Below are positions 2,213 through 63,540 of a stretch of DNA of 64,000 bases, one piece after another. A program made the position numbers and the translations under genes. Every line of letters starts with the position of its first letter. Position 1 is the stretch's first letter. The notes beneath the pieces were generated by a model, which saw only the letters and a list, made by a program, of their open reading frames with translations, ran no database searches and was not told the origin of the DNA. The stretch spans positions 22,623,001-22,687,000 of the forward strand of contig NC_079875.1 of the NCBI RefSeq assembly GCF_029227915.1, written 5' to 3'. This DNA is from Hydractinia symbiolongicarpus (lineage: Eukaryota > Cnidaria > Hydrozoa > Anthoathecata > Hydractiniidae).

Positions 2213-5200
2213 GTACGTTACACAGTGTTCTCCGGGATCTTTTGTGCATATGAAGAAGTCATAAAAATATGCTACACAGTCAACAGTCAATACACCAATT
2301 AACCTAGTTTAGTCATAATGCAAAAACATTGAAAAGATGTAAAATTCTGGAGTATCCCCTCTAAAAAAATTAGTTTTGACATTTGACTAAAAAGAAATAA
2401 AAATATTATCTGCATTTAAAATTTAAAAATTTTTTATTTGTATTTGATAAAATGGCATAAGCTCTGTAGTGTTGATCTGAATGCAAAAGGTTTATGGCAG
2501 TGTGTGTGTAATGGGCAGTTGGTAATGTTGATCTTTTTATCCTTTTGTTTGGGGCTACAGAGACTAGTTGCTTTAAGAGAAAAAATAATGTTAAATGATG
2601 AAAAACTTATTCAATAGCAGGTTTAGTGAAAAAGCATCTAGCGGAACTCATTGAGTAGCATGCAAGACTTTGGCATAGGCACAAAAAGTGTGGCCTATTT
2701 TAATATTAACTGCTACTTACTTTGTGGCCCTCAACTTACAATCCCAGATATAAAGTTAGTGGAAAGGACGGTGGAATATCAAAGTTTGTAACTACAAGCA
2801 ATAAAGAAGTGACACATACTCCAAACTGGTCAAAGTTTGCTTGTCACTGTTTACAACAGAGGATTTTTTGTTAGATCCAAAATCTTAGAAGTGGTACTAA
2901 TTTTTGTTAATGTCAACATGCCCATGTTCCCTAATTTTTCTGTCAAATATAAACAAATAGATAAATCAATAGGTAAACAACTGCGGGCAAAACATAAGTA
3001 AACAATTAGATAAATCTATATAATGGTACCCGCAGTATGTATGTCTGTGAGCCTATAAGTATATCAAATTTCTTCTTTAAAAAACTAGGTTTTCTTACAG
3101 CTTTAGTTATATAAAAATTAAAAGCATGGAATCGCATTTTGGATTATGGCGAGCCTATAGCAAGCAGCGAGGCACAAATGAGTGATTGTAATGCTTTATA
3201 CTAAATGTAGAGTGTATTGACGTAACTAGCAGAAATTTCTTTGCTAAAAAAATGTACTTATTTCTTTGTTATTCTTTCAATCCATTATTTTCTTCAAACG
3301 TTTTGTCATCTCTTTCTTAATATGCCTAAATTCTGATACTTGGGCAGTATAGTTATTACACTATTTTTTATGCTAATCCCTTTACATTGGTCCAAAAGCA
3401 CCTAATAACAACTTTTGGGCCAATAATCTCTTTGTACACAAGTGTGCCCATGGATGCTTAATCATGACAATATATATATGTTAGCTACTTGTCTATGTGT
3501 GGGAGAAATTGTTTCATTGAAGAGGAAATAACAAACCAAAATGGTGGAAACACATTCATTTTGTAGTCTAACATCTGGAATGCAACGCCAGGTCTCAGCT
3601 AGTAAATAAATAGAAGGTTATATAAATAAATAATTCCACTAATTTATTTTGAATTTGTGTAGAGCTTTCACAGGCAGAAGAGGATGAGCTAGCAAGAAAA
3701 TTATCCATGTTGAACAAAATACTTGAAACCGAAGTTGAAACATTAACACTTCAGCAGAACAAGATTCGAAATGAAGGATTTCAGATACAAACGGAGTCTT
3801 CCGCAATATCAGAAATAGAAGAAAAAGACTCACCTGATTATAGGCAAGATATCTCTTTGTTGACTGATGCTTCAGTGGGTGATGATGACCTTTTTCTTTC
3901 ACCAGCTAAAAAGCAACAAAGTAAGTAGAATCCAGACTATCCAGACTATACATTTAAATTTTTCGGCTGTCAAGTTTTTTATATTTCATTTGCAATAAAA
4001 TTGCTCATAAAAGAGCTTTATGTTTTTCAATTATGTGATTTAGATGTTTTTTCAAACTTCTTCTTCTTCAGAAAACTTTGGGGATAATAGTCCACATGAC
4101 TCTCCTCTCATGAGACGTGAGATAACAGATGACAATCGGCAATCTATAATAAATGAACTAGAAAGAAATAGAAATGTTGATGAGGGTGATAACGACTCAG
4201 AGGTAACTCATTAGAATTAAAATTAGTTTTATAAATTTATCTGCACACTAAATGGCTTGGCATTCTCAGAGTAGTAACTACTCCTTTATTTTTTTATACT
4301 TTGTGGGTGATCTCTTTTTTACCATAATTAAAATGATTGTAATAAAAAGTGGTTAAAATGTATTATTTAAAATCAAAACTGTTCATAAGTATACTCACAT
4401 CAGTTACGTTCACTTTGTGAGCTTATAATAATAGGTGAATATAAGGTTGGTAGATTGTAGGATCCTGAATATTTGTCGCTGAAACACTCGAAAAAATGTA
4501 TAAAGTAATGCACAAATAATATAATACAAAACAGGTCTTATTCCTAGTATTATGATGAATTTTATGAAAAGGGGTAACAATCTATTCCCTGAAATTTGAT
4601 GCCTATTGTTACCCCCTCCCCCCCTCTTCTTTCACTGTTTTTTTTAAATAAAAAATTTCCCTTCTAATAAAGCCCTCCTTCTTTTAAATATTAGGAACAT
4701 AATGCAAAATGTTGAGTTTCACTGATGAGGACCATCATAAATACACATATAAAATATAAGAAGAAGATATAGCCAACACTACACTAGCTCTTAACATAAT
4801 TGATAATGACAATATTGATGATGATTTAAATATTATGTAGAACAAACGCCTATCTCAAACAGTCACCTCTAAAAATCAGAAAATTTTAATAAACGCCCTG
4901 GCAATTTATTTGAAGAATTAAATTATTTTTCATTCTGAATCTAGCCTTATGTGAGAATGAAATACTTTCACTACTTATGGACTTCGCTTACAAATGCAAA
5001 AGAACTGCATTGTATGCATTTTTAGTTCAATGCTCAAACAAGTGATCCTGAAGCTGATAAAGATATGAAACAAGAAGGTCAAACTATTGGTAACCATGTC
5101 AGAATTCGAACACGTAAAGGTCAGGCTAGCATAACAGCTCGTAGGAATTGGAGAAGGGCGCTTGATGACATCAAAACGGCTCGTAAAAGTGGTGCATGGA

Positions 5201-8200
5201 GTATTGTAAGTGATGAGAGTGAGGAACATACCGCAAGAGAGCGAGTTAAAAGTATTCTGCAGTCTGATTTACCACCGAATAAGAAAACAAGACCAAAATC
5301 AGCGGGTGATGCTGTAAGTACTTATCATTGGTATGAAGCAGTATTGGACCGCACTGCTGTAAAATCATTTTTTGAGATTTATTTTTAAGCTAATGTCTGT
5401 ACATATGGAGGAAGAATGTGAAGATGAAGTCAGCAAAATTCGTGCAAATTCAACAGATGAACTGACTAATGGAGCAGAAAAAGCAGGCGAGTCACGCTTT
5501 CAACGAAGATATGGTTTTCGGCATTCACCAAGACAAAGTAGAAGAAGAGTGTCGTAAGTTAGTTTTTCAATTTTTGTCTATAAAAAGCTTAATAAATTTT
5601 TAATTGAAAACATATTGCAGATAGTTTAAAACATCTGTACTTAGGTGATATGTGTTGGTTAGTGAAGGGGGTGTTGGAAGAAGTATTATTTGCAGTATGG
5701 GTTCTGGTTTGAAAAAGTTTAGAGAGTTCGTCCTTTTTTGACTAGCAGAGTCTTGTCAATTGAGGTGAAAGGTAGGTTGTATGAAGTGTTATGTTGTACA
5801 GTAGTGAGACATGAGCAGTGAAGCAGAAAGACCTTGATTGTTTAAAAAGAAATGATATGAAAATGGTTAGGTGGGTGTGAACCGCTAGTCTGAGAGACAG
5901 AAATAGTTAATTAAAACTGTAATATTCTAACCTTCGTTTTCAGCCTCCTTTAGCTGTGCCAAAATATGGATAGCTGAATTAATTAAAGATACCACCCACA
6001 TAAGAAGATTGAGTTAGTTGAGGTACTTTGAAAGAATGGAGGGAGGTAATTGAGTAAGAAAGTGTAGAAACTTGATAGTTCGTTTGGCAAAGACCAGAGG
6101 TAGACTGAGAAAGACAGTCTAAATCAGATTGAAAGAGGGTTATTAATATATCTCTTCCAATCTATGCTAGCATGGAAAATAGATGTTAAGCTGCGAATGA
6201 TGATGGTGATAATGTATCTGCATAGACAATTTGTCTCTTGCATAGTTTAATATTTCTTTGTGCAAAAGAAAATTAAAAAAAATAAGATTAAACTGTTTAA
6301 ATTTTAAAATTAAACAATTCTTATAAAAATATTTTTTTTTACTTATTTTTGATTTTATTGTGAACAGGTTTTGTCCAAATATAAATAAAAAAAAAATGAA
6401 AATATAATATGTATATATGTATAAATTGAAGTTTTGATCTTTCATTTAAGATTGTGTATGCAAAACTATGTGAAAAGCTTTTGCGATAAATTGATTAATA
6501 ATTTAAACACTTGTATGACTCGGTTTCTTTCTTAGTTGTCTTGGTGTTTTCTTTAAATCATTTTGAACAGCAATTCAACACTAACTTTTATCATAAAAGT
6601 ATTAAATCTTGTATCTTTAGGATAAAAAAATTTTCAGGCTCAACAGAAGTATTCAGTGTTATATTTTTTGTTCTCTTATTCATTTTGTCATCTGTTGTTG
6701 TTGTTTTTTTTGTTTTTTTTATTGTTGTTTTTGTTATTGTTTTTGTTTTTGTTATTATTTTTGTTGTTTTTATTGTTGTGGTGGTGTCCTCAATATAATT
6801 ATATCAATCACCCACTTTTATTCGTGGAACTTATGGTTGTATTTTTTTTTCATGGCATTGTAATTAAACATTCCTTCCTCAGAGTAATACTTACTGTGTG
6901 TCATTCTTCGCCATTTGAAAGTAAAATGCTTAATGATTACAGTGTTATGTTAGAACTTAATTAATATAGTTGCTGTGAATACTCAGTTTTGATTGAATCT
7001 GTATACTCTATTTAACTCTACATGCAAATAAGATTATTCCTTTCTTTTATTTTTTCACAAATTTATATTTTTTCAGAGCTTGATCATTCGCCATTATATG
7101 TAACAGCTCTGTAGTTTATTTATTTATTTATTTATTTAAGGAGAAAGCTTTTTTTTAAGAGTGAGAGTAAATTATAACTTTTGTCTGAGATTGCTAAAAA
7201 AAAGTGCAAAATAATAATATTTATTTTTGCACCTTTATGTATTTGTGCTTGTTGTCTGTTTTTCTTCTTGTTTGCAATGGGTGTGTAAATTCTTATTTTC
7301 ATCTTTTAAATAATATTTGTCCTGATTGCTAAGTAAATACTTAAGACAGCTTTGGAGTTTAATTTTCTTATGGGTTATACCATGCAGCTGCAAGTTGTCT
7401 TCTTAATAACAGGAATAACAATTTCTCAATATTTGATCAAATTGTATTCAAATTGCTGAACAGAAATAATTAATTATAACTTATAGGAATATGTGTGAAC
7501 ACCCCTGAGATCTATGTGTAATATAACTTATTCTTTGACATATGCTTTTCTTAAGGATTGCTATTACATATAGTCCACAATTAACTATATTGTAATTTTT
7601 TTTAAAAGTCTGAAATGAGTTCCTGTGTAACGAAATATGTATTTGTTGGGGTAAAACTTATTTATAAAAACCTTTGAGTACTGAGTAGAAAACACTAAAA
7701 ATGATAAAAAATTTATCTTTGTGGCTTGGTTTTGGTAGCAAGCAAAAGCTAAATAACATAAGAAGTCTTTGTGATGAGGTGATATATGAAGATGAGGAGG
7801 ATGAAGTAAAAGAAGACAAATTTGAAACTTCTGGCTTAAATATAGATAAAAGTCTTGACAGAGACGAAATAAACTGTGAAAAATATATTTCAAAGGATGT
7901 TGAGAATGAGACGGGAACAGATGGGAACATATTTTTGACGGGGGTAATGAACGTGATGGGAGTGAAACGGAGGAGCAGATATGGTAGCTCAGAGCAGTTA
8001 AACAACAACAAGATGGAACAAAATGGTGTATCTTTACAAAGAGACAGCTGGATTTTCGACACCAAAATGGGTGGTTATGATGATGTTATTTTGAGAGAGG
8101 AAAAAAGAGAACGAAGGCTAACACGAGATGACACTTCTTTGCAGATGATATTCACTCGAAACAGAAAATTTTCTGAGGTCAATTGCAGGAAAGTGTCTCT

Positions 8201-30413: not shown

Positions 30414-33400
30414 TTAAACCACTTTATACCGTCCTGTCTGTGCAGGTCGATACGTGTGCGATTCTGCTCTAATCAACTCTTCCTTCAACAACCGTTTAAT
30501 TTCCGCCTTGGCGATCTGAATGCTTCTCTCGGATAACGACTCGATGTACAAGTGTAGCCTCTTTTCACCTTCAGCTTCATCAGGTTTTTTGTTGGGTGGA
30601 ATATAAAGACCACGAACGGTCACGCCTGCTTCAGATAGTTCTCGCACTTGTTCAATAATTTCTTTCGATGTAATCCTCCATCGCGCTTGTTGCGGAAAAT
30701 CGTTAATATCGATTTCGTCTTCGTACCGTACGGCAGCAGGCTTTTCAACTTCTTGTACCTCCTGTTCAATAGGTTTATAATTCAACTTCGCGTTGACTTT
30801 GTCCGCCAATTGCTTGGCCAACCCGACCCCCTTCAATGATTCCAACGCTCCACCGGAGAGAATATGAGCGGTAGCTGCGGCATTTCTGTCGATGACTTGG
30901 CCAGATGTTAATTTCTTGTTTATCAGGGCGGCGATGTTGGAAGCCTGTTGGAGCTTTCCCTTATCGACGTTCTGTTCGGCCGCTCTCACCTTCTGCATTT
31001 CAACAACTTCAGGAGCAATCGCCACTTTCGGCTTGTTAGAAAACGCTTTCTCGAGGTCCGCATCGATTTTCTCCATCGCGTTTTCAGCTGCTTCTGCTTC
31101 ATCATCTGAATCTTGCAAACCCAAGGCGAATTTTCGCATTTTTTTCGATTCGTTGACACGGGCTGCTTCTTCGTCGTTAAACTTAAAGCCCTTGCCAGTG
31201 AAACCGCTGTTTAATTTCACAGACTTTCCTTCCTTTGCCATCTCTTCTTTGAACTCGTTCCACAGAGCTTGCACGTCGACGGGCGTTTCACATTTTGAAA
31301 GTTCGAACGCTTTTATGACATCGCCTGCATTGCGCCCCTGTTCAGGCGTTAAGAATGTAAAAGCTGTACCTTTATTGCCAGCCCGCCCAGTCCGCCCGAC
31401 ACGATGTACGTAATCCTCGTAGTGATTTGGACAATCGTAATTAACCACTAAAATAAGATTCTTTACATCCAAACCCCGTGCGGCTACGGACGTTGAAACC
31501 ATAAGCCTTGTCACACCGTTTTTAAAATCAGCTATGGTACTATCTCGGTCAAACTGGTCCATGCCCCCGTGTAAAGACAAGCACGGGTAACCGTTTTTTA
31601 GTAAGTCTTTAAATAAAGAATCCGCAGTATCTTGTTTTTCGACGAATGCGAGGACACTCCCCTTTTCCTGATAAACACCCAACAGTTCGAGTAGTTTAAA
31701 AAATTTGTTGTCAGCTTCAAGAACTAACGCACGCTGCTCCACGTCCGAACACACGACACTGCGACCACCGACTTGTATTTCCACAGGCTTTGTCAACACC
31801 TTACGCGCCACTGCTTCCATTTGACGAGGAAAGGTAGCGGAGAATAACACCGTCTGTCTGTCAGGGCGAATGTTACCAATAATTCGCATTACCTAAAAGA
31901 CAATGTGAACACATATTTTACGGAAAGAGAAATTTTTGCGGTGAGAAATGTTCGCGGTACTTCGTGGATCTTTGAAATAAGTCTGCGAGAATTTTTTAAT
32001 GAATATTCATGTCTATAAAAACATTTTTTGTTTCATATTCATATTTTGCGAGAGTACACTTATTTTATAGACAATTGATTTTTTTTCACTTCGCCCCAAA
32101 CATTATTTAGCTTCTTAGGGAAAACGTCACAAAAATTGTTTAGTCATTGTTTACATGCTAAGATTAAACGGGACGTGTATTTTAAAATGAGTTAAAAACA
32201 AAATTTTTATTTCTCTACTTTCTTTTCTTTCTTTATAAATAACTACGATATTTCATCGACAGTATTAACATTATAGTTATGTATTTTATTAAAGACAACT
32301 TTTATTTTTATTGAAGAAAAAAGACTTTTTCGTTATTTTTAGGATAAAACTTTGTTAGGATGTATATTTGACTGAAAAAAACAACTTGATTGTGTTTTGA
32401 AATAATGGTGATTTAGTAGCTGTAAATGCAAATATCAAGGTCTATAAAAATTGTATCTTAACACGCTGGTGATTTTCTTAAATTTTTGTTTAAGATTTTA
32501 AGGTTCTTTAGGCTCATCTTCTTATAAAAAAATCGTGTATTAGACCTTCGCACCATGGAAATTGTTTGATATTTGACCAATTATTTGGCAAGCAAATTGT
32601 TTTATATTTTCAACTATTAATTTGTCCCATCCAAACTGTTTAGCAATTGGTTAAAATTCTAGCAATTTTAGAGCAATTGTTTTGTTTAGATTTTAAAAAA
32701 AAATGTAAATCTTCTCTTTATGGCCGAAAGAAAAGAAAGCAGTTATCAAAAAGAACTACTTTATTTGTGACCACAATTGATAAGCTGTGTTTCTAAGATC
32801 GTAGATTGCAATGTTTTTTTGGTAGGTTCTTTACTGAACTTAAATCATGCTTATAAATAACAACCATTGTAAACTTTCTTAACCACTCAAAGCTCAGAAA
32901 CACTGTTACTTTTTCTCCACAATAATAGCCATGTTTTATCTGTCTGTCCGCAAGAAAAATGTAGTGCAACGGGCACACGAAATAGCGTGTAATCTAAAGA
33001 CGGGCGACCCCATGGATTTTTTTCACGGGGTTAACGACTAGTTTTTTAATATTACCTGAGGTTCGAAACCCATATCGAACATACGATCAGCTTCATCCAG
33101 TACTAAATACGTACATCGTCGACAGTTCGTCACTTTCCCGTTGTTAGCTGCCAACATATCGATCATACGACCCGGCGTGCAAACGATCACTTCCGCCCCT
33201 CTTTTCAATTCTGATATCTGTTCACTAATCCCACTTCCACCATATATACACGCCACAGTCAAATTCATCGGTTTGCAAAATTTTTTACTTTCGCGGTAAA
33301 TTTGCAACGCTAATTCTCTTGTCGGCGTCATAATGATGGCTATAGGTCCGTCGTCTTCATCTAGCTCCGGCTGGTCGATCACATGTCGGAGCATCGGCAA

Positions 33401-35929
33401 AAGAAACGCCAGTGTTTTGCCAGAACCTGTTTTAGCGATGCCAATCATATCACGACCTGACATAATCGCTGGCACAGCTTGAGCTTGAATGGGCGTCGGT
33501 TTCTCGTATCCGCACCGCTTTAGAACGTTCATCACCTTCGTGCTTAGACCACACTGTGCCCACGTTTTGATAGGCTTAGGTACGTGTTTGCCGCGGACCT
33601 GAATGTCTCCTAATGAGTCTCTATATAGTTTAACTTCATCATCCGACATACGAGCAATGTCCGGCACCTCTACATAGAAGTTCCGTCGAAATGACGCGTA
33701 GTATATCTTGCTGTGGTCGGCAATCGTAAGTTCCTTTTTTTTCTTTGTTACGTCTAAAAAATCGCTCGCTTTCACGTCTTCTGGAGCGTCCTCTTCAGAG
33801 GAATATTCCAGTGCGTCCTGGTTTTGTTCAATAACTTCAGGTTTCGCTACAGCTTGAACAGACTTCTTTACGACCGTTTTTACTACAGTAATAGTCTTGG
33901 TTTTACTGCGGCCGACTGATGAAGGTTTGCTGCTTTTTCCTGAAGCGTTCTTATTGATTTCTTTATCGATACCTTTCATAAACGCATCAAGTGGATCTAA
34001 ATCTTCGTCTTCAGACTCGCTCATATTTTTCTCCTCCGCAGGTTCAGCTTTCTTCATTGGTTTACCATTAACAGTAACGCTCTCTTCTGTTTTATTTTCG
34101 CTTGCGGTGGTTGACGCAGCAGCATCAGCAGCATCGTCGTCATCTTCATCATCGTCTTCTAAACTCCATTTCTTTTGAGCTTCATCCTTTTCTTCGTCCG
34201 TTTTTTCCGATTCGGATTTCGCGGAGTCTTTCTTTCGGGCATTTCTCCACGCTTCAATGCGTTCCTTTCGTTTCCTCATCTCCTCCTCAGGATTCAATAC
34301 TTCTTTTTTTACAAGCGCAGGCTTCTCACTCTTCGCCTCCTCCCTTTTTAAGTTCTTCTTGGTTTCGTTTTTTTCCTCTTTCCGTTTTGACTCTTTTCGT
34401 CTTCTATCCTCGTCTCGTTTCAATTTATCTCTTTCCTTTTCCTTTATCCTCTCTCTCTCTTCCTCTCGCGATTTTTCTTTTGCTAGTTCTTTCTCCTTAG
34501 CTCTCTCTTTTTCTTTTTGTAGTTCTTTTGCCCTTCGTTTCTCCTTCTCTTCCATCTGCTTCTTTTTTAATTTCTCCTCCAACTCTTTTAGTTTCTTTTT
34601 TTCTTCGATTTCCTTTTGCTTTTTCTCCTCCGCAAGCAGTTTTTGCTTCTCTTTCTCCATTTCTTCTTTTTCTCTTTCTTTTATTTTTTTAATAGTTTCC
34701 TGCCTAAAAGCGTCTTCATTTAGTTTTTCGGTCTCGACAATATTTTTAGTACCCTTTTCATCGTCAGGCGTTTCACTTTTCTCATTCTTCTCATTTTGGG
34801 CAGGGGACGTGCTCCTACTTTTACGACGCCTTCTCTCTTTCACTGGAGTCTCGCTCCTTCCTATATCAGCTTTATCTTTCACAGCTTCGCTTTTCTCTGT
34901 TTTCTTACTACGAATGGGAGAAGAACTATGACTTTTACGCTTTCTTCTGCTTTTCACTGGACTCTCGCTTCTTTCTCGGGCATTTTTCTTTTTGACAGGA
35001 CTCCGGCTTCGCTTGCGTTCTTTACTCCGTTTTCGTCGACGGCTAGGGCTTCTACTCTGACTGCGTTTGCGTCGCCGTGACGGACTTCTACTTTTTGAAC
35101 GGCGAGATTTTTTTTCCGGACTACTAGACTCGCTTCGCCTGTGTTTTTTTCTGTCCTTTTTTATTTTGCGCTCGTGTTCACTATCTGAAGATGAAGAACT
35201 CCGTTTGTTTTTTTTCTTGTTCTTTTTGCGCTTTTCAACGACAGGACTGCGAGAAGAACTGCTAGCAGATGAATTGTCTGCTTGCCTATGCTTAGTTTCT
35301 TTTCTTCTCTTATGCCTATTAATATTAAGCATGAATAAACAAATAAACTTTTTCAAGAAAACCCAAACTGTAAACAGAAAAAAACATCAAAACTTGCGTA
35401 CCTTTTTGTGTCACGTGATTTTCTAAAAAATAGAATATTACAATTGGCTTATAAATGTGGTTTATGAGCTGTCGAAGTTTCCCACCCTACTAAAAAGTCC
35501 AGAATCCAAACAAAAAACTTTTTTAAAGGCCAGTCATTCCCACCCCCTGGCTATTCATCTTTAAGATCATTACCACCCATTATAAAAACCCATCATTATG
35601 ACTACAGTATGAGCCACTTCGACAATTTTAAAACAGCACCTATTGCTAAGAAAAGTTTAAAAGCTTTCAAAAATGTAGTTAGAGCAGCGTACTGCATACT
35701 CCACTAATGCGGCATACTTCACTATGCCACATAAGCATTTTTAATCTCACCTTTTTTCACCACTAGAGGAATATTCATCAGAGCTTAACATTTCTTCTTC
35801 GCTTGAAGAATCCGCTGAGTCTTGTTTCCACTTTTTGGATCGATCATTTCTATATCTTCGCTTTTGTTTCTTTTTTAATTTTGGACTTTCACTATGGTCT
35901 CTTTTTCTACCTTTATTTTCAGATCCCAT
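30414..35929 (-). CDS. DDX46: DDX46/Prp5 spliceosomal DEAD-box RNA helicase
   Basis: Three exons: 35929-35751, 35315-33056 and 31892-30414, joined by GT-AG introns in matching phase (AG|G Arg; CAG|GTA Gln-Val), total 1,305 codons. DDX46/Prp5 is the U2 snRNP-linked ATPase that proofreads branch-site pairing during prespliceosome assembly. The N-terminus is RS-rich and then a long Lys/Glu coiled-coil. The core has AKTGSGKT (687-694), PTRELA (724-729), TPGR (773-776), DEAD (800-803), SAT (831-833), ARGLD (951-955) and HRVGRTGR (976-983). The match to vertebrate DDX46 is strong at YGGSGISEQISELKRGAEVI and SGFTGKGFKF, and the protein ends TGRYKVV like DDX46 (GRYKVL). The RS tract explains the long antisense Ser/Phe-rich frames on the plus strand. 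Complete and intact. Confidence 0.97.
32921..33044 (+). repeat. Dispersed ~110-bp repeat copy in DDX46 intron 2
   Basis: AATAATAGCC, GTCTGTCCGC, then GACGGGCGACCCCATGGATT and GACTAGTT: the family described at 12944-13300. It ends only about 10 bases downstream of the donor of DDX46 exon 2 (minus strand), so it sits at the very start of that 1.16-kb intron. Confidence 0.75.
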
Positions 35930-36155
35930 CTAAAAAAAATCATTGATGAAAAAATGTATATAAACCTTCAAAATCAAACAGCAATCAAAGAAATCACCAG
36001 TGATATAACTACGCTTCGCTTAAATAAAATTCTCTCTCTCTAAAAAAATGGTAACAATGACTGTAAAATTATCTATTCTTTGTATATATAAATATTTTCA
36101 GATTATTTTATCGTCTTGTTCCCAATCCAATAATAGTCTAGTCAAAATAGAAATC
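35930..36155. other. DDX46 upstream flank
   Basis: Short AT-rich stretch between the DDX46 start codon and the inverted repeat of the next element. The DDX46 promoter and 5' UTR must lie here or inside the neighbouring transposon. Confidence 0.4.
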
Positions 36156-36409
36156 AAATTGTTATATTTACATATTTGGTATCATTAGAAGCGCAATTTT
36201 ATAAAGAATAATACGAGAGTATGCCTCAATTCGGAATCAGGGGCCACTAACAGTTGTAAATCAAAACGCAAGAGGGGGTATTTTCAAGGATTTTAAGCAT
36301 TTTATTAGCTAAGAACATCTATTTGAGTTTGTTTCTAGTTTATTTGAAGCTATTGCATTGCTAAAAATTCGAATTTTCTTTCAGGATAAAAAATAAAGAA
36401 AAATAACAT

Positions 36410-36523
36410 TTTATATATAATTTGCTGGCTGTATGGACCAATCTTGATTTATATATGATTTGCTGGTTGTATGGACCAATCTTGATTTATATATGATTTG
36501 CTGGCTGTATGGACCAATCTTGA
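36410..36523. repeat. Three 38-bp tandem repeats
   Basis: Unit TTTATATATGATTTGCTGGC then TGTATGGACCAATCTTGA at 36410-36447, 36448-36485 and 36486-36523, with one or two substitutions. About 210 bp inside the left inverted repeat, where subterminal transposase-binding repeats often occur. Confidence 0.9.
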
Positions 36524-36799
36524 TTAAAAGTAACGGATAATGAGCCAGGAAGATAGGTCATTGCATACTTATCAAAAAAGTTTCTTGTTATAAAGAGTAA
36601 CATTAAGTAAGGGCCATAGTTTTTATTAGTTAATTAGATAATTACTGTCTTTACTGATTTTTTAGAAAAAGCATATTTATAGTTTACAGTGTTCTCTCAG
36701 GATAATGTTAAAGGTCAGAAGTGATAAATTGTCGAAAGATTTAAGTTACCTCACCTTATAGCAAAGAATCCCTTTCAATTTGAAAATATATTTTTCTCT

Positions 36800-37890
36800 G
36801 AGCTCTCAAGCAACAAACGGGTTCCGTGTGTAATATGCAAGGGATCTTAATCCTCTCAAAAAAACCTTGCAGGATGGCAGAAAAGGAGTTCACACACTAC
36901 TAAACTATGCAAAAAAAAACGCACAAGCACACAAACGACAAACTATGCAAAAAAAAAACGCACACGCACACAAACGCATTGATCTTGTAAAACCAATCGA
37001 AGAACAGCTCTCGCTAAAAGAACCCAACATTAAAGTACATAGAAGCTGTCAACGTTTAGCTTATTATCACCATTGAAAGAAGCAGAAAAGAAACGTAAAA
37101 TATTGCGATCTGCATTTGATTGGAAAAGCCATTGTTTATTTTGTGGTGAAGCCTACTACAAAAATACAAAAAAACATTAGAAAAATGATTGTCACGAAGT
37201 GACCCAGTTAAGGTTTAAAGACAAAGTGTTGCTGAAATGTCAGAAAAGAGGAAAAGAAGGAGAAGAGGTGGAAGTATGTGTTAGAGGTGGCCATGATCTT
37301 GTTGCTACAGATGCACGTTACCACAAGTCATGCTTATCATTATTTTACAACTTGGCAAAACCAAGGACTCTTGGAAAATATGGAGAAAAAAAAACATGAA
37401 AAATGTGAAAGTAGGAAGACCAGAAGAAGAAGAAAAAAGATGTCATTTCGACCAGCTTTGTGACTGGATGGAGTATGAAGCTGAGCTATACACTGCCACT
37501 GAATTACGCAGCATAATGATCAGAATGGTAAATTCAGAAACTGTCTACACCACCAAGTGGCTGAAGACGAAGGTGAAAGATAAATATAATCATCACATCT
37601 TTTTTGCTGAATTAAATGGGAAGTCTGACGTTGTGTGTTTGAAAGATACGGCAAGTCTTATCATTAACAATGCATGATATGAAGCAAGAAAAAAAGAAGC
37701 TGAAAAAGACTCCAAAAGAATAATAAAAAGAGCTGCAAAACTGATTCTTGCGGATATACGATCAACGCAAATTGACAAAGAGTACTATCCAACAGAGGAG
37801 GAAATAGTTGACATCAATATTTGTGAGAACGTGCAGCCTACAACTTAAAGAAAATTTCTAGAAATAATCTTAAAAGACAGACTCAAAAGG
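36800..37890 (+). pseudogene. Decayed N-terminal half of uncharacterised transposon-borne protein
   Basis: Broken frames encode PCVICKGS (36820s), then PNIKVHRSCQRLAYYHH, FDWKSHCLFCGEAYYKN, GHDLVATDARYHKSCLSLF, FDQLCDWMEYEAELYTATEL, KYNHHIFFAELNGKSDVVC and IRSTQIDKEYYPTEEEIVDI. From memory this series (CxxC, VHxxC, CxxC, YHxxC, then LCDW...ELYT and FAE..G..DVVC) matches a large, repetitive, uncharacterised protein family seen in cnidarians and other marine invertebrates. Stops and at least two frame changes (near 37100-37200 and 37330) make this copy dead. The Cys/His pairs suggest zinc-binding modules. After about 37890 the homology stops and the central part of the family is absent, replaced by the reversed endonuclease fragment. 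Confidence 0.65.
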
Positions 37891-38090
37891 GCATCATTGT
37901 GTCATTGTTTAATGATGAGTTTATTAAGTTTTAGTGAACTAATTATTTTTTCGACACTTTTGGTCTCAATACGAGCCCACCGAAAATCGTGTCCGCTAAC
38001 AGGTGGATTAACATTAGTAGTGTCAGAAGAAAATTTAGAGGCTAGTTTGGCACCAACACTGACAAAAAATGAATTGAATGTGTTGGAAAT

Positions 38091-39165
38091 TTATTTTGGG
38101 TGAGAAGTTTCTGTACCATCGTTTTGGACTACTCGTTTTATCGAGGTAGTATTGCCTGACTTATCAGGAACCAGTTTTTTTAGGGTTTTCCAAAGTTGTT
38201 TTGGCTGTTTTTGAAAGTCCTGCAAAACGTCATTATAGTACTCGTTTTTAAGTCGATTTTTGAGACCTATTACCTGGTTCCTTTTTTGTTTGAAAGCTTC
38301 CCAGTCTATGATGGATTTTGTTTTTGATGCTTTCCGTTTCAAGAAGTCTCTTTCTTTGATGGCTATTATTAATTCATCAGTGACCCATGCCTCAACACGG
38401 CCAGAAAATCTATGTGTTTTGAAAGGGGCATGTTTGTCAGCCACTGTTTTAACATTTTTATTCAGTTTCTCACATGCTTCATCAAGGTCATCATAATTAT
38501 TAAAATATGACCAGTCTAAATTCCTGAGGTCCTTCAGAAAAGCCTCTTCACTGAAGTTCTTGTAGCTACGAACCTTGCATGTTTTAGGTTCAAATTTTGG
38601 CCTTTTGAATTTTCTGATAACATAAACTAAATTGTGATCACTGATGCCTAAATCCATGACACCAGTTTTAGTAATACAAGAACTGTTAGAAAGTATCAAG
38701 TCTATAAGAGTGCTACTATTTTCAGTAACACGAGTTGGCTCCGTAATATGTTGTTTTAGGAAAAGAGTGGAGCATAATTCCTTTATTTTGGAGGAAAGAG
38801 CATATTTTGAAAGCATGTTACAGTTAAAATCTCCCAAGATAAAAACTTCTTTTTCTTTTGGGAGCTTGTTAAAACACTGTTTAAAATGAGTACACAGGTT
38901 TTCGGTACTCTGCAAATCACTACCTCCAGGTGGCCTGTAAACCCCACACATGTAAATAGGTTTAGTTTTTTTCAGGCACACTTTCACCCATAGTGATTCA
39001 ACATTTTTGAAGTAAAGGTATTTCAAAAGGTGGCTATCCAAGTTTTCATTAACAAAAATTAGAACACCCCCACCTCGTCTATTCCGATCATTCCTATAAC
39101 ATAGCCATCAATTTTAACGTCATTGTCAGTGATGGTGTCAAAAGGATGCTGAATTTGTTTGCAGC
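38091..39165 (-). mobile_element. Non-LTR retrotransposon endonuclease fragment
   Basis: A 316-codon frame (38091-39041) encodes the C-terminal part of an APE-type endonuclease: CGVYRPPGGSD, FILGDFNCNM, LIDLILSNSS, then the diagnostic GISDHNLVYV, followed by the endonuclease-RT linker (KPKQLWKTLKKLVPD-like, here KQPKQLWKTLKKLVPDKSG). Upstream, in shifted frames, are NDRNRRGGGVLIFV and HPFDTITDNDVKIDG, so similarity reaches about 39165. The N-terminal catalytic half and the entire reverse transcriptase are absent. Loss of the 3' end is unusual for a target-primed insertion; a later deletion or capture of an internal piece is more likely. Confidence 0.85.
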
Positions 39166-39169
39166 CTCG

Positions 39170-39938
39170 GACGAGTTAATTATGCAAAAAGTACCCGGCT
39201 ATATTTGCAAAGCATGAATGATCTTCCCCAAAAGCATCCATGGTTATACCACTGCTTCCACGAGAAGGGCTATCACACTATCAGAAGAAGTGATCAATAT
39301 TGGGCTGGCTTGTGGTCTGATCTGATAATCGAACAGGTCTTGATGAGTGCTGTAAAAAGTCGCGGAGGATTAAGTAGAGGAAGAGGTGTAATATCAACCT
39401 GGTGTCTCATGATGCAATGATTAGCATCTATTCAACAATCCATGTCTAAACTTACAGATCATCAATCTCAATCAAGTGAGCAACACGTTGGGACGAGAAG
39501 TAGTCGTATGGAACGAGACTCTAAAGATCAATTAATAAAATCAAGAAATCACATCATACTGTCAGTGATTATCGTTTATTTTTCATATAAATTATTATTC
39601 TCACATTATGTTCGGGTAAACGAAAAACCTATATACACAAGGCTAGTTTGGATCCAGAGGACTGGGGTTGGATTACTCAAAATGACAAATACTTGCCTGT
39701 ATACTCTAAAGAGCCTGTTGCACCGGAAAGATTGCTTAAGTTCATAAGGTGTAATTGCAAACTCGAGACAAAAAAACCGTGTTCCACAAATTGTTTGTGC
39801 AGAAAGAACTGCACTGTCTCACTGGCTGCGGGAACTACAGAGGAGATAGCTGCACCAATAAAGACCCAAGGCTCGAAAAAGACAATACAGAAGATGAAAA
39901 CGACTGCAAAAGAAACATTTTCGACGACTTGTAGTTAA
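39170..39938 (+). pseudogene. Decayed C-terminal part of the same uncharacterised protein
   Basis: Frame 39205-39420 reads EKGYHTIRRSDQYWAGLWSD then LIIEQVLMSAVKSRGGLSRG; a shifted frame (39648-39938) reads DPEDWGWITQNDKYLPVYSK, then RCNCKLETKKPCSTNCLC and RKNCTVSLAAG. From memory both blocks belong to the same uncharacterised invertebrate family as 36800-37890: the W.GLW.D..IEQ.LM...K..GGL.RGRG motif, and a terminal Cys-rich CxCK...C...CxCRKN...C motif that probably binds zinc. Intervening stops and a frame change show it is non-functional. Confidence 0.65.
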
Positions 39939-39966
39939 TTTTTTTCAACTAGTAATAAATTGTTAA

Positions 39967-40768
39967 GGTTACTGTAAAGGAAACAATTTTTTTTTTAGGT
40001 TTTTTGCAAAAAATTCAAGACATATAGAAAAAAAAATTCTCTTTCGAATGACATATTTTATACTCCATGAAAAATTTGAAACATCTCTTTTTTCTGAAAA
40101 AAGCCTTTTCACGCATATTCAGCATAAAGAAAAAGTTCTCACTTCTGTCCTCTTTCTGCATACTCAGTTCGCACATTTTCATAACACCTACGAAAATCTT
40201 TAAAAACAAATATCTTGTTAGTAAATTTTCGCATACATGCCTTTACGTTTGTGGTCTCTTTTTCTGAAAGCTTCCTATTGGCTCATTGAAATTTTCCGTA
40301 ATGGAAAGCGGAAAGCTGAATAAATTATGCACAAAAGGTTCCCGGATTTTTTTGTATAAATTACTGATTAGCAAGTTATGACAACAGAAAGAAAAAAATA
40401 TGCATTTTTTTAAATGATTACATATAATTACAAATAATTTCATAACAACGTTATTATAAAGAAAAATCCGGGAACCTTTGTGAATTTAATTTATGCTGAA
40501 TATAATGGTGCAAAAACGAGAAGTCTCCGACCACACGTTCGGAAAAAGAAGCCATTTTAAAACGTACAGTGAAAAAAAATTGTGTGTGTTTATTTCATTA
40601 TATTTTCTTTTTTGAAAATCAACATCTCACGAAAATATCACTATTAAAAAGTCTTTCATCAAACATTCAAAAACAAAAAACAAATAAAAAAAAATATGAA
40701 AGTATTGATAAATTGTAAGGGTTTTTCTGAGACTACTCATCAAGTGAGTTTTTTCCTTTACAGTAATC
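39967..40768. mobile_element. Nested TTAA-flanked element, family C
   Basis: TTAA at 39963-39966 and 40769-40772 flank termini GGTTACTGTAAAGGAAA and TTTCCTTTACAGTAATC (one mismatch). 802 bp with no coding potential. It sits just after the last Cys-rich frame and about 100 bp inside the right inverted repeat of the larger element, so it is a later nested insertion. TTAA duplication suggests piggyBac or Kolobok. Confidence 0.85.
40316..40495. repeat. Large imperfect palindrome inside the nested element
   Basis: AAAAGGTTCCCGGATTTTT (about 40331-40350) pairs with AAAAATCCGGGAACCTTT (about 40462-40480), with looser pairing outward (ATAAATTATGCAC against TTTAATTTATGC). Arms of about 35 bp around a loop of about 105 bp; a cruciform or transcript hairpin is possible. 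Confidence 0.8.
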
Positions 40769-40916
40769 TTAAGGTTTTCATCAAAGAATTTCAGTTAAAT
40801 TTCATTCAAATACCCACTATTGCATTTTGCTTTATACTTTTTATGCTTTTTAGTGAATTTTAATGTACATAAAAATTGCGCTTCTAATGATACCAAATAT
40901 GTTAATATAACAATTT

Positions 40917-42600
40917 ATTCTAGGTTGACCTATATTTCAGGCTAATTAGACTAAACTATAAGTACAAAAAATAGAGAAAGACGCATCTAGTGATTTAAAG
41001 TACAGTTCCATCATGACCTTGTGACAGATTTTGCAACAGAGGAAACAAATATGTATGGGACGTAATCAAGTCTAAAGCCACATATCCAGGCGAATACAAT
41101 GTGACAATTGGTAATGGCTGAAAAACACAACCATTTTTTAAGTCGCTGACAAAAATGAAGAAAATGCCTATCAGTTTTAAGGATACTTGAAAATAAGACA
41201 CATTTTTTGAACTTTTATTTTCCAACAATCATTTTTTCTTTTTACAGTAATAACTTATAACCCGCTTAGCCTGGTGCTATGCAAAAATAGCAACAAGGGT
41301 TGCAACATCATGTCATTTAGTACCTGGTAGCTTGATAAGAACATAGGAGATGAAGTAATTTATAGCCAAATAGATCTAAGTCACAAAAACATTGGCATTT
41401 AAAAAAAATAAAAAAAAAATTACAATATGTTCATGGACGTAGAAATTATGTTTTCTAACAATATAAACGTTCGAACAACTTAAGAAAATTTTTTCAAACA
41501 CATTGAAACCATTCTTATAGTTCTGTTCTAAAAGTTCTAAAATTGTACATTTTAGCTGGTCACTACAGAAAAATAGTGCCTGCTAATGTGACCAATATAA
41601 GCTAATAAAATCCTCAGATATAAGGGAGACATTACAGTGCCAGTTACTAAATTGTATTACCTACTTTAATATAGTGACATTGTCAAATCGAAACAAAATT
41701 ATGATGGAAGTGCCTGATCATTTGAAACACGGTCATTTAAACTTGACTGTTTAGACAGGCGATCTATCCAACTATCTATCCAAAATGAACAAAAATTTCA
41801 TTCAAAGATTTATCAAAGATTTGGGAAATCCCACTATTCACCACGTTTTATATTCCTGTTTAAAGTTATGACACTGACCATTACCATATTTCAAAGATAA
41901 ATAGACTAGAGCAATGCTTGCACGATTTAACTAGTTAAAAAAAACTTGAGCTTGCTGCAAATCTTTGTATGAAAATGCTGCTCTAGTTATATATAAGGCA
42001 TTACGGGCATGTTAATAAAATTAATTGGAAATAACAATAAAAATGGGTTGAATTAGCAGGGACTATAATTTAGAAACCGCCCGAACTAAGAGCATGTTTC
42101 CTTTCCCTTACACTGTCTGCAGTGTTTCCATAAACGACAGAAACTAAAAAATAATTTCAAATATTGCTATTTTACAATTGTAAAAAGGAAGTTGGACATC
42201 CAATCAAGTAAATAGAAGTTCCTAAATAGGAGGCCTGACTGTTCTTTGCCAAAGTTTGCAGCGCTTATCAGTCTGTTCTTGGAAATAAAAACTGGCTTTA
42301 CTTTGAAATCAATGCGTTAAATATCTCATTCAGTTTTTATGATGGTGCGGGGGGCCACCTAGAATTTTAAAAATTATGTGCAACCAATCAAAATCCTTGC
42401 TTGTTTATTTGTTCTGACGTCATATTAGGGCCCAAGCTTTGATTTCGCTAGAGATGCAAAAAATAATTATATAGCAAATATGGAGGCAGCATAAATAACA
42501 AACGCAAAACAGATGACACAGCATCACAAAATTATGCCTTAAAAAGAGAAATAAAGGGTGAAAACACCATCAGGTTGATCTATTACATAATACACATACG
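40917..42600. other. Upstream region of ARIH1; no gene seen
   Basis: AT-rich. A minus-strand frame at 40995-41228 has no recognisable feature. The ARIH1 promoter and 5' UTR should lie close to 42600; no TATA-like element is convincing. Confidence 0.4.
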
Positions 42601-45600: not shown

Positions 45601-48600
45601 GTTACATGAGTATTTGGCAGATAAGTCAGATTGAAAGAATTTTTATGTAGGAGATAAGTTGTTAAGAGTTTTATACACTAAGAAAACGTTTAATGTGAAA
45701 ATTATATTAGCAAGGGGAGGTATATTTAGAGTATCAAAGAGTGGTTGAGAGTGGGCATAGTATTCAGAAAAAGTTATGAGGCGAACTGCAGATTTTTGTA
45801 GTTTAAAAATATGAGAGTTGAGTGCGTAGGGTTTTCTGAGATAAGTAAAGGTAATTGTGAGAGAATACCATTGGCTCCACAAAGTTTAGGAGCAAGAGTG
45901 TTATAATGATAGAACCAGCTTAAATTTTCATTCAAGTAAACCCCAAGGTATTTGACTGATGATGAGAGTGAGAGACGTTTACCACCTAGTTTCAACTTGA
46001 TGTCATAGTTAATTTTTTTTTTATTTCTGAAAAGGATAACTTCTGTTTTGGTCACGTTAAGAGCTATCTTATTAGCATTCAGCCATTGTAGTAAGAGTTT
46101 TAGATCAAGGTTGACTTTCTTTTTGATAATGCTGAGATCTTTATGAGAAAATAGGAGACAGGTGTCATCAGCAAATAGGAAAGTTTCCGAGTTAATTACT
46201 GCATCAGAGATGTCATTGATATAGAGTAAGAAAAGGAGGGGTCCTAGAACAGAACCTTGTGGTACGCCATTTGGAATATAGATTTGAGATTAGAACTGTG
46301 GCCATTGATAGACACATACTGGTTACGATTGAGAAGGTATGATTTAAACCATTGGTTAGGCAAATCCCACAATGATTTAATTTGGATAAAAAAATTTCAT
46401 GGTCGACAGTATCAAACGCCTTTTGCAGATCAATAAAGACCCCAAAGTGGGGTTAGTCTCTTTTTTAAAGATTTGTATCCTGATCCCAGACAACACTGTA
46501 CTTCTATTTACCTAAAAATAGTGAAGGTTAGAGGAATTTCTTACATTCTAGCCAACTAGGGACTTTGAAAAAAATTGGCCCCTGTAATAGGATTTTGTGT
46601 GTTTATTTAAAGGGAACCTGGAATTTGGAAATATATCCAACTTTTGAAACATGTTTGTACTGAGAATGTACAAATTGTGTTTTTGCATTCACTTTGTACC
46701 CGTCTATTTTACATTTCATGTTTTTTTGTAAACATGTTCAAGGTCAGATAGAATAATATAATATTTTCATACATATCCACTGCACACCAGTTCTCTTGTT
46801 TTAGGATGTTCCACATTTTAGGTGTGCTATTTTTTAATTGATATCACACCTCGATTATTCTTTAGCATACGTTCTATGTTTTCTATTCAAGATAAATTCT
46901 TATATTTTGGCAGTTCCGTATTATTTAAATGAAAACTGTAATGGTTAAAACATTTTGCACATTGTTTGTGTTTATTGCACATAATAAATGCACATGTAGC
47001 ATTATAATAGAGGATGGTTGTTTTGGTACTAAATGTTTCTTTTTTGCTTAATTGAACAATGGATCTTTTACTTCGTGCAAACATTTTTTGTAGGTAAAAA
47101 TATCTTTTGTTTCAAGTGTAAATTATTGCTTTCTAGATACCTTGTGCAACTGCCCGTATATTACTGACACACTTTAAATGGGATAAAGAAAAATTACTTG
47201 AAAGGTATTATATATATCTGTCATAATTTTCTTTTCTGTATTTGAGGGACCTATAATGTACTATTAATGACTGCTTTCTCTCTTTTGCATAGATACTATA
47301 GCAGTGACCAGGATACATTGTTTAAAGAAGCACATGTGATTAGTCCACACAAAAATCAACAGTCATCAGCAAGAGTACATTTTTTTGTTTTTTTTTTATA
47401 TCCTTGTTAGGCTATTACCTTATCAGAAAAAAAAGTTTATTATTGACAAAATTTTGACTCAGTGACTATAGTATGTTTTACAAGTCAAGCATTTTTAGTG
47501 ACAAACTATTTTTACTATTTTTTTTTTTTTTTTTTTTTTTGCCATTTAAGTCTTTTGTTCATTTTAGTTTTTCCGTTTTTATTGATCTAATAACCTAAAT
47601 GCCCTGAAAACGAAGATAAAAATATTAGATATTGTTATTTTCCATTCAAAGATTTAGTTTATAAAGTGACTAGATTTTGCACGACTAATATTTTTACTGA
47701 CTAAAAATTTTTTAGGGCAATATTCAAACAAGGCTAATTTTTTTTAGACATCACGCTCTGGTATTCGTATCCATCCGAAATTAGAATGTGAAATATGTTT
47801 ATGTCCAGTCCCAGCAAAGGTGAATAATGTTTGTATATAATGTTGCAATGTAAATAATAATAGATTGAGTATAAGTGCAAGACATGCTTTTGAAAAGATT
47901 GCTCTGGAATAACATGAACAAGGGAAAAGCTGGATATAAATGTGGTAACTTTCTAGTTTAATGATGGCTAGTTTTGTAAAGCTTCATCGTCTGTTTTGTT
48001 TTTAGATGCTGACGGGGCTTGAATGTGGACATGTGTTTTGTCAGTTTTGTTGGAACGAATATTTAATGATGAAAATTTTGTCAGAAAACACTGGTCAACA
48101 CATATTTTGTCCAGCAAGCAAATGTGACATATTAGTGGATGAAAATTTTGTTCTGTATGTTATAGTTTAAACCTGCTTTCTTGTTTTGTGTGTCCTTACA
48201 TAAAAGTTTCATCTTCTATTGGGTTGGCTCTTTATTATGTTTTTTTAATTTTAAAATAGATTTTAAATAAAACAACATTTTGAAGTTTTTGTTTTAATTC
48301 CAAACAAAGTATTTTTTACAAAAAGTGTCGACAATTATTTCTTATATTTTTTCTATATTAAAGTGCAATAGGTGTCACAAAAAAGTGAAAAGAGTATGTT
48401 GCATTTGTTATATTTTGTTTGCTCAAAGAATACCTATGAAATTGCACAGAGACAGGCGAAAAACTATTGTTATAGAGAGGTTATTTGTGTTCATTGCGTT
48501 CTTATTTAGAAAAGTTTTACAAGATGCAAATATACGCTCCCGTTATCATAAATTAATTGCAGATAGTTTTGTGCAAGTAAGTGGGTTAGTTTAATAAAAT

Positions 48601-56611: not shown

Positions 56612-57649
56612 TCAATTCTTTGTGAAATGGTTATACTTCATACGTAAGGATCTTAGTTGATCATTTTCTTGATTTATATCAGGCACAGCATAAGGTCCAC
56701 TTGCTATGCTGTTAAATACATCACAGTCATCTTCCTTACCTGTTAAGCATATATTTCGAAGATCTGGCAATTCATGAAATGGTAAATATGCTTGTCCATA
56801 AGGCAATTTTTTGTGTTTTCGGGAATCTAAATCGTCAAAAAATGTTTCATGGTTTTCCCAATGTTTGTCACAAGCGGCACATAAAAAATCGGATTCAAAT
56901 ATAAAACAACCACAAAAACGGACCGTGCATTTTCTTGTGTTTGGGTTGTGCTGATCGTGTGTATGCTTGCATCTGCACTTTGCCCTCCACAAGCCTGGAT
57001 TAAATCCAGGTCTTTTTGGTAACCACCATTCACCAATGTCCTCAGGCCTTTCCGGTATAAATGCGAATGCCTTGCAGTTACAATTTGCAGCGAGACATTT
57101 CACTTTAATACTGCTTTTGTTGTACGACGCATGTTCACTTAAATTGTGATCGCAAAAACAACGCGAATGTTTACTTAGTCGGATGCAATCCCAGTCATAT
57201 TCTGGACACCTCCAACCAATGTATACCCCACTTTTAATGGCTTCTAGTGCTGCATTAGTTTCGCCACTGAATAAATTTTGAACTCTGGGTGCAAATTCTT
57301 CTCTGTGCATTGCTCTGGCAACAGAAACTACTTCTTTCTTTTTGGCAGGCACAATAGGCCTTACAGTGTAATTTTTAGGGGAAAGAATAGTAGCTAACTG
57401 AGTCGGTCGATTTCTATTGCTATTAGTTTTAGCACTGACGATACTATCAACCGGAGCTACCCGACTTCTTGGCATTGTTGGACCACTTCGTCCATAGCGA
57501 TTTTGCCGTTGGCCAGGTGCTGCATCGTCTGAAGTGGTCTTACTTAAGTTTTTTATGCTAGATATTTTAACGTTCTTCTTTTTTTCTTCTTTTGGTAGAG
57601 AAACTTGAATGAGTTTCTTGCGTGTTTGTTTTTTCTTTACAGGATCCAT
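56612..57649 (-). CDS. FAM221B: FAM221B-like Cys-rich protein, intronless
   Basis: A single uninterrupted frame of 345 codons. The first about 110 residues are basic and low in complexity. The rest is the FAM221 domain, with Cys/His clusters RCFCDHNLSEH, CLAANCNCKAFAFIPERPED, GEWWLPKRPGFNPGLWRAKC, RCKHTHDQHNP, CTVRFCGCFIFESDFLCAAC and DKHWENHETFF, then LPYGQAYLPFHELPDLRN. Order and spacing match vertebrate FAM221B better than FAM221A. The pattern suggests zinc binding; the family's biochemical role is not established. Vertebrate homologues have introns, so this copy may be a retained retrogene, or the lineage may have lost introns. It is divergent from the gene at 57897 across a 247-bp gap. 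Confidence 0.85.
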   Translation of the reverse strand: MDPVKKKQTRKKLIQVSLPKEEKKKNVKISSIKNLSKTTSDDAAPGQRQNRYGRSGPTMPRSRVAPVDSIVSAKTNSNRNRPTQLATILSPKNYTVRPIVPAKKKEVVSVARAMHREEFAPRVQNLFSGETNAALEAIKSGVYIGWRCPEYDWDCIRLSKHSRCFCDHNLSEHASYNKSSIKVKCLAANCNCKAFAFIPERPEDIGEWWLPKRPGFNPGLWRAKCRCKHTHDQHNPNTRKCTVRFCGCFIFESDFLCAACDKHWENHETFFDDLDSRKHKKLPYGQAYLPFHELPDLRNICLTGKEDDCDVFNSIASGPYAVPDINQENDQLRSLRMKYNHFTKN

Positions 57650-57896
57650 AACATCAGACCAACAAAAACTAAATTCACGTATATAGTTCAGTTAAAACTT
57701 CTACACCTTTTCTTTCCTCTACCCTACCATCTTTGTTTACCTTCTGTTAGACATAAACTGAAACTACACTGGTGTTGAAGCTAGCAACAATCCAAAATGG
57801 CAGTCAGGTAGCGATAAAAGTAAACAAAACAAATAGCAGGATGGCTATGCTCTATTTTTTCCCCAGGATATTCCCTGTTGATTTTTTAAGCATGCA
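57650..57896. promoter_or_regulatory. Putative bidirectional promoter
   Basis: A 247-bp gap between the start codons of the FAM221B-like gene (-) and the unrecognised gene (+). Any 5' UTRs and promoters of both must share this interval. No TATA motif is clear; AAAATGGCAGTC at 57792 resembles a YY1-type site, but this is weak. Confidence 0.35.
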
Positions 57897-62123: not shown

Positions 62124-63540
62124 TAACTAGTCGGTAAAGCCCGTGGAAAAATCCGCTCAGGCAGGAGAAAAATAAAAAAGAAGCCTTATTTGAATTTTGA
62201 TGACGTCAGCAACCCATGCCCCCCAATAATTCAGAAGCTTGTTTTCACGTTGCCTCCATTGTGTAGAGCTTACAGCGCTGATCAAGAAATTGTATATGAT
62301 CCTGTGCTTTTTGATAAGCGGTTAATGAAATATAAGGGTTTAAAAATTTTGCTGACGTCAGCAATGGCCCGTCAAAACCTGAAAAAATTTTTTTTCGGAA
62401 ATTTGTGTACATGTTGCCTTCATCGCATAGATCTTGAAACACTGATCAAGAAAATGTATAGGTTACTGTGGAAAGTTTATCATTTCTTGAACATAATAGT
62501 ATAATAGTTTAGTAGGCGACGTTTCGGGAGATCATGTACTTTTGACAAACGGGTACGGACGGAGATATGGTGCTTTAAGTGATTTTTGATGATGTCATCA
62601 ACAAGTGCATTCCGAAACGGATTTCGGGATCCAGGTTTCGGAAATTTACCCAAATTGGTCCTAGGTGGTCCCTAGTTAGCCACGCGGTGAAAAAATCATA
62701 GATGTCAATATCTCGTTTCGAAGATATTTGACCTGAAAGTTCTGGGTACACTGTATTGGCTTCTAATTTAATATAGAATATTGACGTTAAGTAGTGTTAT
62801 TGACGTCGCTGCGTAACGTCAGAAAATTTAACATACAGTAGACTCCCGGTTATTCGAAGCCTCAAGGGGGATAAGAATTTACTTCGAATAACCGGGAGTT
62901 CGAATAACTGAAAAATTCGTTTTCCCGCCAGATTTTCAACTTAACCTTAATGGGATGGACTTTTCTTAAGTAATTGAGGCATTGTGGTTCAGTTGAGCGT
63001 GTAAACACAAAGAATTTTTACTTTTTGAAGAAAGAATAAATTTGAACAAATTGTTAACAGGTTTTAAAATATGAAAGTTATAAAGAAAATGTATCTAGTA
63101 AATACAAGGAGTTCAACTCTTAAAAAAATCTTTAATGCTACAGAGTGTAAATAGCCATGAATATTGAAACCTGATTTTTTGAAGAAAAAAAGTGTTTTAA
63201 TCGCAGAAAATCAATGTTCTCACTCGACGATCTCCCAATAAAAAAAATTCGAATAACTGAGGGTGAGTTGGCCTATAATTGGCCCCAAGGGGAATAAAAA
63301 TCACTTCGAATAACCGAATTATTCGAATAACTGAAGTTCGAATAACCGAGAGTGTTTTTGCCTGAGTTGGGTAAGCAGATCCAAGGGGAACGCCATCTCA
63401 CTTCGAATAACCGAATTATTCGAATAAGTACAGGTTCGAATAACCGGGAGTCTACTGTATTAGACACGCTTTTTCGGCAACATCAAAGGAAAATGAGCAC
63501 ATCCACTTTGCCTGTTACAGAGACACGGAGCTGACGAATC
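62124..63540. repeat. Repeat block bounded by dispersed-repeat ends
   Basis: Begins with AACTAGTCGGTAAAGCCCGT then GGAAAAATCCG, the reversed end of the 12944-13300 family, and ends near 63510-63540 with CTGTTACAGAGACACGGAG and ATCTATATATTAG, the opposite end of such a unit. Contains diverged direct repeats (62188-62340, 62341-62470 and a third near 62580) sharing TGACGTCAGCAA/TGATGTCATCAA, TGTTGCCT and CTGATCAAGAAA. The ORF at 62190-62504 is only an open stretch across these repeats. Confidence 0.6.
62836..63457. mobile_element. pogo/Tigger-like miniature element (TA-flanked)
   Basis: TA at 62834-62835 and 63458-63459; perfect termini CAGTAGACTCCCGGTTATTC and GAATAACCGGGAGTCTACTG. Interior holds repeated TTCGAATAACCGGGAGTTCG-type subterminal motifs on both sides, and no transposase. 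Near-perfect ends suggest a recent insertion within the older repeat block. Confidence 0.92.

Follow-up and report, generated by a model that had tools for sequence, protein, structure and literature searches.

A decayed terminal-inverted-repeat DNA transposon of Hydractinia symbiolongicarpus, very probably of the AcademX type

We analyzed a 64-kb stretch of the Hydractinia symbiolongicarpus genome (RefSeq assembly GCF_029227915.1, contig NC_079875.1, positions 22,623,001 to 22,687,000), here called the window, which contains a transposon at 36134–40958 (window coordinates). Our results indicate that a cut-and-paste DNA transposon, now inactive, occupies this locus and very probably belongs to the AcademX type of the Academ superfamily. 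The assignment was made because the family to which the copy belongs combines a transposase with a conserved catalytic Asp-Asp-Glu (DDE) set, an encoded nuclease, and target-site duplications (TSDs) of 3 bp, which together match AcademX as described. The nuclease is found in relatives of the element and not in the window copy.

Ends, target-site duplications and related copies

The initial annotation of this DNA described an element at 36156–40916 that was bounded by 45-nt inverted repeats. These repeats (36156–36200 and 40872–40916) are present and are complementary at 44 of 45 positions (98%), including 31 nt that are exact. When the whole window was scanned for exact inverted 20-mers with starts no more than 6 kb apart, three places were found, and this pair is the longest of the three. 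We nevertheless rejected 36156 and 40916 as the termini because homology between copies runs outward to TAGTCTAG. The outer limit of this homology puts the true left end at 36134 (TAGTCTAG) and the true right end at 40958 (TAGTTTAG, minus strand), so that the element is larger than first described. The left terminal inverted repeat (TIR) occupies 36134–36200 on the plus strand, starting with TAGTCTAGTC, and the right one occupies 40872–40958 on the minus strand, starting with TAGTTTAGTC; each includes its 45-nt arm and both start with TAGTYTAG. The window's left end is approximately 10 bp shorter than those of two related copies, L009 and L010, and it is because of these missing bases that the ungapped inverted match stopped at 36156. 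Directly outside the TAGT termini is the trinucleotide TAA on both sides (36131–36133 and 40959–40961). The 38-bp subterminal repeats of the initial annotation also exist, as three tandem copies on the plus strand at 36410–36525 (family D1 in our repeat comparison), but on the left side only.

We searched the genome (480.9 Mb in 76 contigs) for further copies and read 16 of them, namely the window copy, L009–L013, which were chosen by the window TIR, and L032–L041, which were chosen by the protein. The window's left end had nine matches, two of which are its own arms, and the best other copy is 95% identical. A TIR query from a sister family had 40 matches with both arms counted, the query itself being one of six with 100% identity, and the homology of its best matches ends no more than 3 bp from the terminus. 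Transposition of the sister family was recent. The description of the family as high-copy therefore suits this sister family, and suits the window's own subfamily less well. The 95-aa middle piece of the window protein had at least 18 matches in the genome, two of them overlapping. Protein of this family lies within TIRs in eight of the 16 copies: five of the ten chosen by protein (L032, L034, L038, L039, and L040) and three of the six others. Termini of the class TAGTYYAG occur in six of these eight, and L009, L010, L032, L034, and L039 share this class with the window copy. As a side observation, L010 (on contig C11) carries an insert of approximately 2.5 kb at about 3040–5570 in whose frames a reverse transcriptase of the Penelope type and a GIY-YIG-like end seem recognizable by eye. 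L011 (C6:31.47 Mb) and L012 (C6:17.75 Mb) have identical flanks in opposite orientation, which looks like a segmental duplication and not like two insertions.

An exact 3-bp duplication flanks six of the seven copies in which both termini were identified (TAA in the window copy, TGT in L009, GTA in L032, ATT in L034, TAT in L039, and TAA in L040), and the flanks of the seventh, L010, match at two of three positions. When flanks of different copies were paired as a control, 2 of 42 pairs agreed. There was no agreement in any of the seven copies in other registers from –8 to +8, nor at lengths of 4–8 bp. This count excludes L035, which has repeats of another type, L033, L036, L037, and L041, which have no clear TIR, L011, L012, and L013, in which one end only was found, and L038, in which the left end is unclear. 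A binomial estimate for the agreement is 1e-9. This value is too good, because five of the seven copies had more than one TAGT candidate at an end and, L034 on its right side excepted, the outermost was chosen. The second set is cleaner in this respect since its pairs were chosen before the flanks were seen. It consisted of 12 arm pairs among the matches listed, or ten after removal of two that had already been used. Six of the eight pairs scored have exact duplications (ATG, CAT, GTT, ATA, TAA, and CAC) and two disagree (L050/L051 with TCA/TAA, and L060/L061). The other two pairs have mutated termini and were left unscored; by eye they read TTA/TTA (L056/L057) and TCA/TTA (L058/L059). These data support a consistent 3-bp TSD and, together with the TIRs, the shared termini and the multiple copies, the idea that this is a TIR DNA transposon, as the initial annotation had supposed.

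The protein family and its remnants in the window copy

Of 7984 sequences scored against the 595-aa open frame in L016, 378 are relatives at E ≤ 0.001; for P0086 the figure is 500 of 7995, and in both cases the listing comprised the top 120. Among those listed, the relatives that carry names are called 'hypothetical' or 'uncharacterized' (Patella, Clytia, and a Sedimenticola metagenome-assembled genome that may owe its relative to contamination), have transcript identifiers, or, in Nymphon, form part of a gene model called a sulfotransferase that is apparently a fusion. Most have neither a name nor a Pfam domain, and Clytia, Patella, and Nymphon represent three marine animal phyla, in line with the earlier view of a usually unannotated family of marine invertebrates. 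Pfam gave no family above its cut-off in the relatives scanned; weak PIN-like matches were seen in three of nine, and there was no helicase domain among the matches. The best score for DUF6589 (PF20231) was 24.7 bits, in P0200, against a cut-off of 27; P0098 reached 19.4 bits and P0077 17.9 bits. The database lists PF20231.4 for P0200 although our scan scored it below the cut-off, and DUF6589 was matched by 1 of 30 members of alignment A3 at E ≤ 0.01. The name DUF6589, a possible bridge to Academ, did not occur in the literature searched.

Full-length relatives are single polypeptides of approximately 1300 aa, and all of the DDE and XPG motifs sought are on one chain in 46 of the 227 proteins examined. 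The family carries its own conserved D, D, and E. In structural models, full-length relatives are predicted to have a DDE domain of the RNase H fold that is interrupted by a large insertion of helices. The best structural matches of this model were Transib, Hermes, and RAG1 with middling scores, and a Foldseek search with it gave no significant match. After the DDE domain, a nuclease domain of the XPG/FEN1/EXO1 family is predicted, both by profile search and by predicted fold; in the model of P0001, residues 741–1024 have this fold and the acidic active-site residues. In sequence searches of the PDB, EXO1 was found by alignment profiles only, a window piece reached a best E of 0.24, and P0001 alone had no match. 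The relatives end in a Cys cluster, and C..C/H..C motifs can be read by eye from the consensus near the N terminus.

Both ends of the broken large protein that was first noticed at this locus are present in the window copy (36782 to about 37920 and 39621–39904), and a middle piece is also present at about 39136–39534. The N-terminal transposase part (LCDW...ELYT, FAELNGKSDVVC) lies on the plus strand at 36782–37920, its right edge being approximate. It was identified by tblastn with P0182, P0189, and P0226, is broken by stops and frameshifts, and also matches residues 21–186 of P0072. DNA homology between the window copy and L010 stops near 37920. From there to 39135 (edges approximate) there is, on the minus strand, a fragment of a non-long-terminal-repeat retrotransposon (a long interspersed nuclear element, LINE) with an endonuclease/exonuclease/phosphatase-type endonuclease (PF14529, E=6.8e-9; PF03372, E=2.6e-6; over 38091–39107), in which the search showed no reverse transcriptase domain. 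The LINE fragment occupies the place where the DDE core and its two catalytic Asp residues would be expected. The middle piece (WAGLWSDLIIEQVLM...GGLSRGRG, plus strand, 39136–39534) corresponds to the end of the DDE domain and includes the helix with the presumed catalytic Glu, which is invariant in A3; its segment 39169–39531 is 83% identical to residues 787–911 of P0182. The C-terminal piece (plus strand, 39535–39938) matches residues 901–986 of P0029 and 744–830 of P0059 and ends in the Cys cluster CNCK...CLCRKN, matched at 39621–39904. None of seven protein queries gave a window match for the XPG region, which would be expected ahead of this piece, and Pfam searches of eight window pieces gave the LINE endonuclease alone above cut-off.

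Relative to P0072, the window copy retains residues 21–186 and 608–735, and the gap (187–607) contains the two Asp motifs of that protein (positions 259 and 422). Relative to the closer P0182, it retains residues 6 to about 370 and 787–911, with identities by piece of 56, 79, and 83%, the first two in the N-terminal part. Because the first two catalytic Asp residues and the nuclease domain are missing, the window copy, judged by its sequence, cannot move itself; it is an ordinary dead copy. L009, L010, and L013 show internal deletions that differ from those of the window copy, and therefore each copy decayed on its own.

A nested insert of approximately 0.8 kb at 39963–40772 has 24-nt imperfect inverted repeats (I3, GRTTACTGTAAAGGAAA) and TTAA at both edges. 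It is not in L010 or L013, which continue straight across the site. It resembles a TTAA-type miniature inverted-repeat transposable element (MITE) of the Kolobok or piggyBac class; against this, the empty site reads TCAA in L010 and TCAC in L013, not TTAA.

Elsewhere in the window, a gene for a DEAD-box helicase that includes a KH-like domain (30417–35386, minus strand; PF00270, PF00271, and PF23469), which we take to be DDX46/Prp5-like, lies approximately 0.75 kb to the left of the transposon. There is also a reverse transcriptase fragment (45777–46289, minus strand; PF00078, E=1.6e-14) and a FAM221 family gene (56615–57691, minus strand; PF14753, E=1.4e-18). Perfect 26-nt inverted repeats (ATACAGTAGACTCCCGGTTATTCGAA) separated by 576 nt at 62833–63460 resemble pogo-type MITE ends, and a similar pair surrounds the element in L032 (1854–1886 and 7692–7724).

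Classification

Academ was described in 2010 in Repbase Reports, according to PMC4455052. AcademX is given in PMC10045372 (citing Kojima 2020) as the Academ lineage with a DDE transposase and an encoded nuclease; the same account has TSDs of 3 or 4 bp in AcademX and of 9–10 bp in AcademH and ties them to the encoded nuclease and helicase, respectively. Our element has the TIRs, the 3-bp TSD, and, in its relatives, the DDD/E transposase and nuclease of the former. It lacks the TSD length of AcademH, and Pfam listed no helicase family for those relatives that were scanned. The X of AcademX probably refers to XPG; the literature searched contained nothing on point about Academ together with XPG. 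Because the features of AcademX match, the initial proposal of a transposon that had not been described as such probably does not hold and the family, as judged from published descriptions of Academ, probably has a superfamily name already.

It seems unlikely that the element represents a separate, unnamed superfamily that has come to resemble AcademX in its DDE transposase, XPG nuclease, and 3-bp TSD by convergence or distant descent. Such a superfamily would accord with the lack of Pfam families in the relatives scanned and with the uninformative names of those listed, yet it would have three independent AcademX features coincide. Moreover, three coral genomes have 1,886 to 4,662 Academ-1 copies each in the counts of PMC12005156, and Academ is therefore known in cnidarians.

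The 3-bp duplication is also a feature of PIF/Harbinger, CACTA/EnSpm, and Zator. Membership in one of these groups is very improbable, given that the termini are TAGTYYAG and not CACTA/G, that the ten different TSD sequences observed are not of one TWA type, and that Pfam listed neither an EnSpm nor a Harbinger family for the scanned relatives. To our knowledge, none of these three groups has an XPG domain. Finally, we rejected the suggestion that another transposon's TIRs enclose the protein as cargo or as a domesticated host gene: the window protein is indeed broken and without its catalytic core, but conserved D, D, and E residues belong to the family itself, some of its members unite the DDE and XPG motifs in a single chain, and it recurs inside TIRs, mostly with TAGTYYAG termini. 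Between transposase and cargo, the two roles first proposed for it, the transposase stands.

Possible mechanism and comparison with known systems

These observations, with the two predicted folds, lead us to propose an order of reactions and a substrate for the nuclease. The TIRs would be held by the Cys/His-rich regions at both ends of the protein together with helical parts, with the N-terminal C..C/H..C motifs and the C-terminal Cys-rich part binding DNA. The RNase-H-fold DDE center would then cut both ends at TAGTYYAG to excise the element and join them to target positions 3 bp apart, which would produce the 3-bp duplications. If RAG1, Transib, and hAT are taken as a guide, hairpin or flap intermediates may arise, and the XPG/EXO1-type nuclease could trim or open the branched or flapped structures that cutting leaves at the ends. 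It is conceivable, although this is a tentative idea, that the family provides its own end-processing enzyme in cis, a RAG1/Transib-like DDE core being joined to a FEN1/EXO1-family nuclease that opens hairpins or trims 5' flaps at donor or target ends and sets the 3-bp duplication. A predicted inserted DDE domain of the RAG1/Transib/hAT type beside an XPG-family nuclease makes this a testable model. The analysis also gives a large 'hypothetical' family of approximately 1300-aa proteins from marine invertebrates and metagenomes an identity as a TIR DNA transposon transposase, very probably Academ, and once identified such proteins can be masked as transposon genes.

As a comparison, AcademX by its description shares with our element and its relatives the TIR, the DDD/E transposase, the encoded nuclease, and the 3-bp TSD; the difference lies in the internal deletions of the window copy. 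At 4.8 kb with its inserts, this copy is near the mean Academ length of 5565 bp reported for a curated bivalve library (PMC10294476). If the element is Academ, AcademH belongs to the same superfamily by definition, but it encodes a helicase and has TSDs of 9–10 bp (PMC10045372) where this family has an XPG-type nuclease and 3 bp. Transib/RAG1 and hAT (Hermes) have an RNase H fold into which a large helical segment is inserted ahead of the last catalytic Glu, as the middling structural matches tentatively suggest for this family too; searching the PDB with sequence profiles gave no match to them. Their TSDs are 5 bp and 8 bp, respectively, lengths at which our copies showed no agreement, and they are not known to have an XPG domain. 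KolobokE, KolobokD, and KolobokP are, like this family, eukaryotic DDE transposons with an accessory nuclease, although PMC9587614 describes those nucleases as having other folds (lambda-exonuclease-like, DnaQ, and His-Me). EXO1, FEN1, and XPG share the predicted fold and acidic active-site residues of P0001 741–1024, with 12–14% identity in the structural alignments quoted, and differ in that the nuclease here is fused to the transposase. RAG with Artemis shows a comparable division of labor, which in the element's family would be carried out by one polypeptide.

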